Below are positions 109 through 1,752 of a stretch of DNA of 37,845 nucleotides, piece after piece. The notes under the pieces were generated by a model. That model made no database searches, was not told the origin of the DNA, and saw nothing but the letters and a program-made list of their open reading frames with translations. Source of the stretch: Candidatus Peribacteria bacterium (GTDB lineage Bacteria; Patescibacteriota; Gracilibacteria; Peribacterales; Peribacteraceae); NCBI GenBank assembly GCA_009691305.1, contig SICS01000009.1, forward strand, positions 1-37,845, read 5' to 3'. Made by a program: the position numbers and the translations under genes. Every line of letters begins with the position of its first letter. Positions within the stretch are counted from its first letter, which is position 1.

Positions 109-1446
109 TTAATCCTCCCCCACGTGATCCCTCATCACATACGTGTCGAGGTTCTCTTTACCAAGTAGTTTGATGACTTCGGGGATCACATCGTCGAAGG
201 CCATCTGTTTCTGTTTACCAGCCTTCATATCGCGCAGGATGATCGTGCCTTCCTTCACTTCCATCTTCCCAAGCAGCAGCGTGTAGGGAGCCTGGAATTT
301 GTCAGCTAACCGCATCTGGCTCTTCAAACTCGCTTCGCCCAGTGCTCCCAGCGTGTGCACGCCCAGGTCGCGGAGCTTCGAGACGAGCATTAAACACTGC
401 TTCTTTGCCTCCGGCCCCAACTGTGCCACGAACACGTCGAGTTGGTCCTTGTTGGGCGCCTGGACGCCGGCTTCCTTCATGTGCCAGATCATTCGTTCCA
501 CCCCTCCTGCGAAGCCCACACCTGGCGTCGGTTTGCCGCCCAGGAGCTCCATCAGCCCGTCGTAGCGGCCTCCGCCGCCTACCGCGTTCTGCGCACCGGT
601 CGAGCTGTCCCAAAATTCAAACACCGTCTGGCAATAGTAATCGAGACCGCGAACGAGGCCGGGGTTTGCAATCGATTTCACGCCGAGTGCATCGAGGTAC
701 TCGAGCAGTGTTTCGTGGTATTGCTTGCTCTCGTCGCTCAAAAACTGCTCGAGCTTGGGCGCATTCTTCACGAGGATCCGCGTGTCCTCCTCTTTGCTAT
801 CGAGCAGTCGCAGGGGATTCGTCTGGAGACGTCGCAGATCATCGGGTGGGAGCTGCCGCTCTTTACCGATGAAAAAATCCTTGAGCGCTTCGATGTAGGC
901 CTGCCTGTTCTCCGCAGACCCGATGTTGTTCATCTGCAGCGTTAGGCGCCCCAAGATGCGCAGGTCGCTTAGGATCTTGGTGATCACGTGGATGAGCTGT
1001 GCGTCGATGCTGGGGTCGCGCAGGCCGATCACTTCCAGGTCGATCTGATGGAACTGTCGATATCTGCCTTTCTGCGGCCGGTCGTAGCGGAAGCACTGGC
1101 CGATGCTGTAGAGCTCCACTGGCTGCGGCAGGACCTGCATGCCGTGCTCGATGTAGGCGCGGCAGATGCCGGCGGTGAACTCCGGCCGGAGCGCGAACTC
1201 GCGTGCCTCGCCTTCTCCATCGCGCTTGCCGATCACGGTGAAGAGTTCCTTCTCCACGATGTCGGTGTGCTCGCCGATGCCACGCTGGAACACGCCCTTG
1301 TTTTCGAACATCGGCGGATCGATGCGCTTGTACCCTGCCTGGCGGCAGCGGTGACGTACCACCTTCTTAATGTACGTGTGGTACTGGTGGTCCTCGGGGA
1401 GGACGTCGTGGGTGCCTTTCGGACTTCGGAACAATGGTTCTGACAT
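109..1446 (-). CDS. hisS: Histidyl-tRNA synthetase (HisRS)
   Basis: Class II aminoacyl-tRNA synthetase that charges tRNA-His with histidine in the cytoplasm. The 445-residue protein has the usual bacterial length. Visible signatures are the N-terminal GTHDVLP, motif 2 with the FRYDRPQKGRYRQFHQ stretch, the histidine-A loop GLDYYCQTVFEF, motif 3 GGGGRYDGL with GVGFAGGVER, and a C-terminal anticodon-binding domain from about residue 335. The ATG at 1446 begins MSEPLFRSPKGTHD, which is the expected N-terminus. The gene diverges from tRNA-His, its own substrate, about 230 bp away. A short upstream ORF (1465-1545) repeats its first nine residues. No good -10 box lies directly before 1446, so transcription probably begins upstream of that ORF. 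The identification is secure. Confidence 0.97.
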   Translation of the reverse strand: MSEPLFRSPKGTHDVLPEDHQYHTYIKKVVRHRCRQAGYKRIDPPMFENKGVFQRGIGEHTDIVEKELFTVIGKRDGEGEAREFALRPEFTAGICRAYIEHGMQVLPQPVELYSIGQCFRYDRPQKGRYRQFHQIDLEVIGLRDPSIDAQLIHVITKILSDLRILGRLTLQMNNIGSAENRQAYIEALKDFFIGKERQLPPDDLRRLQTNPLRLLDSKEEDTRILVKNAPKLEQFLSDESKQYHETLLEYLDALGVKSIANPGLVRGLDYYCQTVFEFWDSSTGAQNAVGGGGRYDGLMELLGGKPTPGVGFAGGVERMIWHMKEAGVQAPNKDQLDVFVAQLGPEAKKQCLMLVSKLRDLGVHTLGALGEASLKSQMRLADKFQAPYTLLLGKMEVKEGTIILRDMKAGKQKQMAFDDVIPEVIKLLGKENLDTYVMRDHVGED

Positions 1447-1464
1447 ACAGCGTGTGGATGAGGA

Positions 1465-1545
1465 TTACTTTCTCCGAGACCCCTCGTAGCTCTGGCCGAA
1501 GCCAGAGCGAAGTGGGGTGGGGGAGCGGAATAGTGGTTCGGACAT
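1465..1545 (-). CDS. 26-codon upstream ORF repeating the HisRS N-terminus
   Basis: ATG at 1543-1545 and TAA at 1465-1467. It encodes MSEPLFRSP followed by an unrelated tail made by a palindromic repeat. The first nine residues equal those of HisRS, but five of the nine codons differ (TCC/TCA, CTA/TTG, CGC/CGA, TCC/AGT, CCC/CCG), and every difference is synonymous. The stop lies 18 nt before the hisS start. A TGTTACGCA stretch 9 nt before this ATG could serve as an extended -10. It may be the 5' end of an older or recombined hisS cut by the repeat, or a translated leader. Whether it is translated is unknown. Confidence 0.45.
   Translation of the reverse strand: MSEPLFRSPTPLRSGFGQSYEGSRRK
1479..1518. 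repeat. Palindromic repeat in the hisS leader
   Basis: Nested inverted repeat: an 8-bp stem GCTCTGGC/GCCAGAGC (1489-1496, 1501-1508) around a CGAA loop, enclosed by ACCCC/GGGGT. Its layout (CGTAGC, stem, GAAG, GGGG) matches the repeat inside mltG at 14737-14768, so both belong to one dispersed family. It forms the tail of the 26-codon upstream ORF. Confidence 0.7.
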
Positions 1546-1597
1546 GGGAAAACGTGCGTAACACTCGAGTAACACAACTAAGGGCAGAGCTTACCAG

Positions 1598-1675: not shown

Positions 1676-1752
1676 GGCGAGCGTAGCTCAGTGGTTAGAG
1701 CATCTGGTTGTGGTCCAGAGGGTCGCGGGTTCAAGTCCCGTCGCTCGCCCCA
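1676..1752 (+). tRNA. tRNA-His (anticodon GTG), CCA encoded
   Basis: The cloverleaf can be folded by eye. The G-1 needed for histidine identity is at 1676 and faces C73 at 1749. The acceptor is GCGAGCG (1677-1683) paired with CGCTCGC (1742-1748). The D arm starts GCTCAGTGG. The anticodon arm is TCTGG-TTGTGGT-CCAGA with anticodon GTG. The T arm is GCGGG-TTCAAGT-CCCGT. The 3' CCA is encoded at 1750-1752. It lies next to hisS in the opposite direction. Positions 1741-1754 recur exactly at 3344-3357. Confidence 0.96.

Follow-up and report, generated by a model that had tools for sequence, protein, structure and literature searches.

A ~100-nt hairpin element a few codons inside the essential hisS gene of Peribacteria points to an undescribed miniature mobile DNA

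In integrons, attC is a hairpin with asymmetric mismatches, and the units are small and are inserted serially, with the newest lying nearest the fixed end. Other mobile DNA enters conserved gene ends and restores them. Thus, phages that target tRNA genes share a 30-45 bp core between attP and attB, from which the tRNA is rebuilt (PMC10865867), and SpyCI enters at the 5' end of mutL (PMC3430984). The REPs are short imperfect hairpins, with GTAG on one of the strands and a mismatched stem, and are sometimes arranged in inverted pairs; the manner of their spread is still unsettled (PMC8266576, PMC3116915). MITEs and Rickettsia palindromic elements, in turn, are small dispersed palindromes able to enter coding regions (PMC10969869).

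The locus described here has traits of all of these. The window, that is, the whole stretch of 37,845 nucleotides that was analysed, is contig C29 of the 1.07-Mb genome of a Candidatus Peribacteria bacterium (G000). In it, a hairpin element of about 100 letters sits a few codons inside hisS, an essential gene of these tiny uncultured bacteria, and points to a so far undescribed kind of miniature mobile DNA, a novelty that is provisional and judged against the open-access literature only. The features of the locus, from upstream to downstream of hisS, are the following:

1588 to 1596, minus strand: extended -10-like TGGTAAGCT, the putative native hisS promoter, recognized from the sequence and aligned with relatives.
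1558 to 1575, minus strand: operator-like inverted repeat GTGTTACTCGAGTGTTAC between the native promoter and the old ATG, in the same place as in G001-G003 and possibly regulatory.
1519 to 1545, minus strand: left copy, codons 1-9 (MSEPLFRSP) of what is probably the ancestral hisS start, now severed from the gene, as indicated by its sequence and by promoter homology with relatives.
1465 to 1545, minus strand: 26-codon reading frame, in which the old start seems to be prolonged by chance across the hairpin and which is probably not a functional leader, the old start codon being lost in the relics G077, G079, and G069.
1479 to 1518, minus strand: imperfect hairpin of a dispersed family, with the core CTTCGCTC..GAGCTACG at 1512-1485, the foot ACCCC..GGGGT, and fixed noncanonical positions between the stems.
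1447 to 1479, minus strand: 33-nt spacer that separates the hairpin foot (TCTC) from the new ATG.
1420 to 1446, minus strand: right copy, the putative recoded replacement start (codons 1-9), as the right copies of carriers are closer to each other than their hisS bodies predict.
109 to 1446, minus strand: hisS (HisRS, 445 aa), with a body that is probably native from codon 9/10 onward, since G083 shows no foreign tract past this point at the homologous site when compared with its sister G081.

The frame opened by the ATG at 1545 reads MSEPLFRSPTPLRSGFGQSYEGSRRK. Its stop ends at 1465, 18 nt before the hisS ATG at 1446, and the two ATGs lie 99 nt apart. Both starts encode the same nine residues (9/9), while five of the nine codons differ (TCC/TCA, CTA/TTG, CGC/CGA, TCC/AGT, and CCC/CCG), so that the 27 nucleotides hold 8 differences and no amino-acid change. 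The initial annotation, made from the sequence alone, had described this copy of MSEPLFRSP and its purely synonymous differences exactly to the base. It had also held random similarity to be insufficient, and this agrees with the simulations, in which random substitution is expected to give 4.7 amino-acid changes and gave none in 0 of 4000 runs. In the hairpin-free hisS genes of the family, moreover, the best upstream match nearly always stays at or below 4 of 8 residues, with G021 (6/8) as the exception. Chance likeness of the peptides is ruled out on both grounds, and the suggestion that both copies were once under selection at the protein level is supported. A plain target-site duplication followed by drift is ruled out for the window pair, where all 8 differences are synonymous; in G088, the two hisS copies are nearly or fully identical, and taken alone they are what a plain long duplication would likewise give. 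An assembly artefact is ruled out by the presence of the same junction in independent assemblies, including a contig of 1.07 Mb (G031). The window pair was noticed for its peptide match, and the remaining hisS pairs were picked by position or nucleotide pattern.

The initial annotation took the upstream sequence for the copy and, among other options, for what is left of an old hisS start that the repeat had cut. The duplication and this last option stand, and the roles of the two starts are reversed. Relatives have hisS promoters that align with the 75 nt located 5' of the old ATG, both in genus g1 (G001, G002, and G003; z 5.2-6.7) and in other genera (z up to 16.3 in g28, up to 4.2 in g63, and 4.7 in g57), and the promoter-like and operator-like elements of the window are positioned as in G001-G003. 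In the same comparison, the region 5' of the new ATG does not align with any of these promoters, and between G031 and its relative G032 neither start gives a promoter signal. Because its upstream context matches the promoters of relatives with one hisS start and that of 1446 does not, the start at 1545 is, as judged by sequence context, the ancestral one, and the annotated start at 1446 is a second, recoded newcomer.

The palindromic repeat into which the left copy had been said to run is a real hairpin. As single-stranded DNA it folds best on the bottom strand (-15.3 kcal/mol, z = -6.0), and this strand carries CGTAG or CGAAG together with stem mismatches, as REPs do. The core CTTCGCTC-N2-30-GAGCTACG is present in 28 of 59 relatives, in a survey that drew on selected genome stretches, and the control pattern, the core read backwards, gave almost no matches. 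Many of these hairpins sit between a truncated gene end, which abuts them, and the intact gene 20-56 nt beyond; many others have no detectable gene-end duplication around them. At L114, in the window's own genome (G000:C21:11184-11230), a hairpin lies between two exact 13-nt copies of a tRNA 3' end and has the same right extension, TCTCGGAGRAAGT, as the hisS hairpin. At eight loci (L120, L125, L142, L143, L148, L161, L184, and L186) the hairpin abuts the CCA of a tRNA 3' end, which forms its left foot. Others (L140, L168, and L165) occur in REPIN-like inverted pairs of ~100-170 bp, which suggests that such pairs are the complete form of the element.

Alignment of hisS upstream regions, proposed earlier as a check, shows that the duplicate start recurs together with the hairpin. 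The family-wide search covered 74 genomes, in ~67 of which the hisS 5' region is readable. In 11 of these ~67 Peribacteraceae genomes (G000, G005, G006, G026, G031, G068, G077, G079, G080, G083, and G088), the stub, the hairpin, and a second start lie upstream of hisS, broken after the same codon, and each of the 11 has 32-34 nt between the foot of the hairpin and the new ATG. Three further genomes hold relics: a degraded stub in G069 and the right end only in G086 and G010. The old ATG has become ATT in G077 and G079 and is gone in G069. Carriers and non-carriers are interleaved, and the hisS protein tree, which cannot separate gain from loss, requires at least 9 changes of state. In most carriers, a search of the hisS spacer for a relic of codons 10 onward, such as is seen at lepA and tRNA-Ile, gave no significant match. 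A search for orphan hisS starts in the rest of the family genomes found a single one, at G006:C83:3013-3231 (L189), a second hisS 5' part of 73 codons that lies on a small, possibly contaminating contig beside a transposase-like gene.

The source of the recoded start is best seen in genus g28. The left copies of G080 and G083 are near the single start of their sister G081 (p 0.07-0.11), whereas their right copies are distant from it (p 0.26-0.33) and nearly match each other; the spacers of G080 and G083 are also similar (z 7.4). Between G083 and G081, 7 of the 27 nucleotides of codons 1-9 differ, as against 13 of the next 120 and a proportion of ~0.08 in the remainder. In this comparison, the clearest between a carrier and its sister, the downstream copy thus appears to be foreign over codons 1-9 only. 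Across carriers, the right copies exceed the mutual similarity expected from the hisS bodies (mean residual -0.10), an effect that is slight in the left copies. The likeness of the right copies, the foreign tract of nine codons, the constant spacer, and the patchy distribution of carriers are best accounted for by a preformed unit with its own start.

The hisS duplicate appears, from these sequence comparisons, to be one instance of a family-wide phenomenon that affects many genes, each analogous unit occupying one fixed site per target gene. In three genera (G005, G029, and G089), adk is broken after codon 8 and has a recoded second start (L302, L303, and L306; at L302 an extra truncated adk start lies near 730). 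Units at lepA are found in two genera (G006 and G062), with TCGC(G/C)CAC directly past the hairpin. In G062 (L250, G062:C16), four lepA starts stand in series, separated by hairpins, and decay rises away from the gene, the farthest start and hairpin being the most decayed; this series represents serial insertions at one site. The 5' end of tRNA-Ile is duplicated round a hairpin in six genera (L243-L248), always split at the same base after GGGCGATTAGCTC, and in at least four of the six AGGGGTTA, with which the tRNA itself continues, comes after the hairpin and precedes the intact tRNA-Ile. In some tRNA-Ile pairs the copies show few or no differences, as a plain long duplication would also leave them. 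Further cases are an MBL-fold gene of G033, in which 8 of the 9 codons at the 5' end are recoded with a single conservative amino-acid change, the 3' end of a protein gene of G026, whose five synonymous changes include the stop codon, and tRNA 3' ends with analogous hairpin units. Some of these other-gene pairs were picked by peptide similarity, so that their synonymous excess is biased upward.

Compared with the known systems, these units are closest in layout to gene-end integrative elements and prophages, with which they share a fixed site in a conserved gene end, flanking direct repeats, and an element-borne replacement end. Direct repeats that regenerate the gene end at a fixed site are found at hisS, adk, lepA, and tRNA-Ile. 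Contrary to such elements, the units are ~100 nt in total and hold no integrase or cargo, the att-like hisS copies enclosing only the hairpin and the 33-nt spacer; besides, one hairpin type serves many unrelated targets, and insertions are serial. The hairpin itself resembles REPs and REPINs in being short and imperfect, with GTAG on one strand, stem mismatches, and occasional inverted pairs, but it sits at a fixed position inside a gene end and is accompanied by a second, recoded end. Like MITEs and Rickettsia palindromic elements, it is a small dispersed palindrome in a coding region; unlike them, it comes with a gene end resupplied in recoded form. Instead of terminal inverted repeats and a short identical target duplication, as in MITEs, 13-33 nt of gene end are duplicated, often recoded, and instead of an in-frame element that leaves the gene single and functional, as in Rickettsia, a second gene start follows past the hairpin. 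With integron cassettes the units share a hairpin with asymmetric mismatches, small size, and serial insertion, the latest unit lying closest to the fixed end. They differ in that neither attI nor an integron integrase was found (the window genome has one tyrosine recombinase match, of unspecified subtype), that the cargo is a gene end only, and that essential genes are the targets.

The probable explanation is a mobile miniature hairpin cassette that inserts at a gene end and regenerates the gene with its own recoded end. The hisS cassette would consist of the hairpin, the short spacer, and recoded codons 1-9, ~100 nt in all, and would enter the resident hisS precisely after codon 9. The old start and its promoter would be left upstream as a stub, and the cassette start would become the new N-terminus, in frame with the native hisS body. 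Transcription may then come from a cassette-borne promoter, possibly located in the spacer, and the recoding may reflect a cassette end derived from another species. There would be one cassette per target (hisS, adk, lepA, tRNA-Ile, and others) and a hairpin type common to all; with a fixed entry site per gene, the gene is regenerated and the insertion tolerated. In the tRNA-Ile and lepA cassettes, the units read hairpin, continuation, leader, and gene end, the order expected from a small circle opened at its target. This would correspond to site-specific integration of the circle at the very end of the shared core, with attB as core|continuation and attP as core|hairpin and with the newest unit adjoining the gene. 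The intermediate may thus be circular, perhaps single-stranded, and a recombinase would act on the hairpin, which is the likely recognition element since each target has its own core and all share the hairpin. The wider proposal has an even chance of being right: a gene-specific class of mobile DNA, whose cassettes cross species as small circles, enter essential genes at one fixed position, swap in a recoded end, and stack serially by means of a hairpin-recognising recombinase. The window genome encodes one tyrosine recombinase match and five RAYT-like genes, none of them linked to the hairpin there. Neither a free circle nor a larger autonomous element was seen, and scans of viral contigs for a MSEPLFRTP start and of phage and plasmid records for the window cassette found none.

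Other accounts explain parts of the pattern. It appears unlikely that a hairpin entered only once, in the ancestor of the family and with a long duplication of its target, and that vertical inheritance was then accompanied by frequent loss through slippage deletions that restore a single start. Direct repeats that flank a hairpin are easily deleted, relics do occur beside intact copies, the spacers of G080 and G083 are alike, and the hisS tree is compatible with loss. A non-functional left copy, however, should decay randomly, yet it agrees with the start native to close relatives and differs from the right copy almost only synonymously; the serial lepA insertions and the recurrence at four genes need many events in any case. 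Recombination with a diverged hisS, one of the options raised initially, holds insofar as the downstream start is foreign. Ordinary gene recombination is less likely, since the tract spans only ~9 codons, comes along with the hairpin and the spacer, and is found again at one and the same codon across many genera, all of which leads back to a cassette. A refined form is rather improbable: after natural transformation, a donor block of stub, hairpin, and start would recombine, with the left crossover in the short start and the right one in the hisS body, and no dedicated enzyme would be needed after the first event. It would provide a constant junction and a foreign right copy without a recombinase, but the left crossover would be confined each time to 13-27 nt of ~70-75% identity, as the upstream regions are not homologous between genera, and the foreign tract of G083 stops at codon 9/10 rather than running into the gene. 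The cassette is preferred because neither vertical loss nor homologous recombination explains the nine-codon tract and the repeated targets as simply.

Transposition of the hairpin by a RAYT/REP-type process into a gene end already partly duplicated by an unrelated one is improbable, even though the bottom strand has GTAG and stem mismatches as in REPs (PMC8266576, PMC3116915), some hairpins form REPIN-like pairs, and RAYT-like genes are present. It leaves the same hisS codon, the 33-nt spacer, and the recoded second start unexplained. Besides, a strict core pattern did not find the cassette hairpin around the RAYT-like genes examined, and since the hairpins beside these genes are different ones, RAYT was rejected as the mobiliser. 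A translated leader or attenuator coupled to hisS, which would mimic the HisRS N-terminus, had also been offered; it has an intact frame ending just before hisS and a conserved peptide in the window on its side, and is nevertheless highly improbable. The start codon is lost in three genomes, most relatives have no such frame, the frame past codon 9 is hairpin sequence without a run of His codons, and tRNA genes and a protein 3' end show the same arrangement. The conserved translated frame and regulatory codons of a leader-peptide attenuator were thus not found.

If the cassette reading is true, ~100 nt of DNA can repeatedly enter essential genes where these are most constrained, by carrying a synonymous replacement with them, and the annotated starts of hisS, adk, and lepA, as well as some tRNA flanks, are secondary in these bacteria. 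The units would offer a sequence-level handle on the spread of short palindromic elements, and the recoded stubs could date and trace horizontal exchange among Peribacteria.

Other elements lie close to the hisS locus or recall it. Tandem REP-like hairpins (GGGAGCRSCCTTTCTGGSYGCG) are found downstream of hisS, at 30-105 in the window and at L291, and the neighbouring contig C4 holds a RAYT-like gene. The gene for tRNA-His, the sole match of the Rfam search (window 1677-1752), adjoins hisS on the opposite strand; in G003 the two are also adjacent and lie on the same strand.
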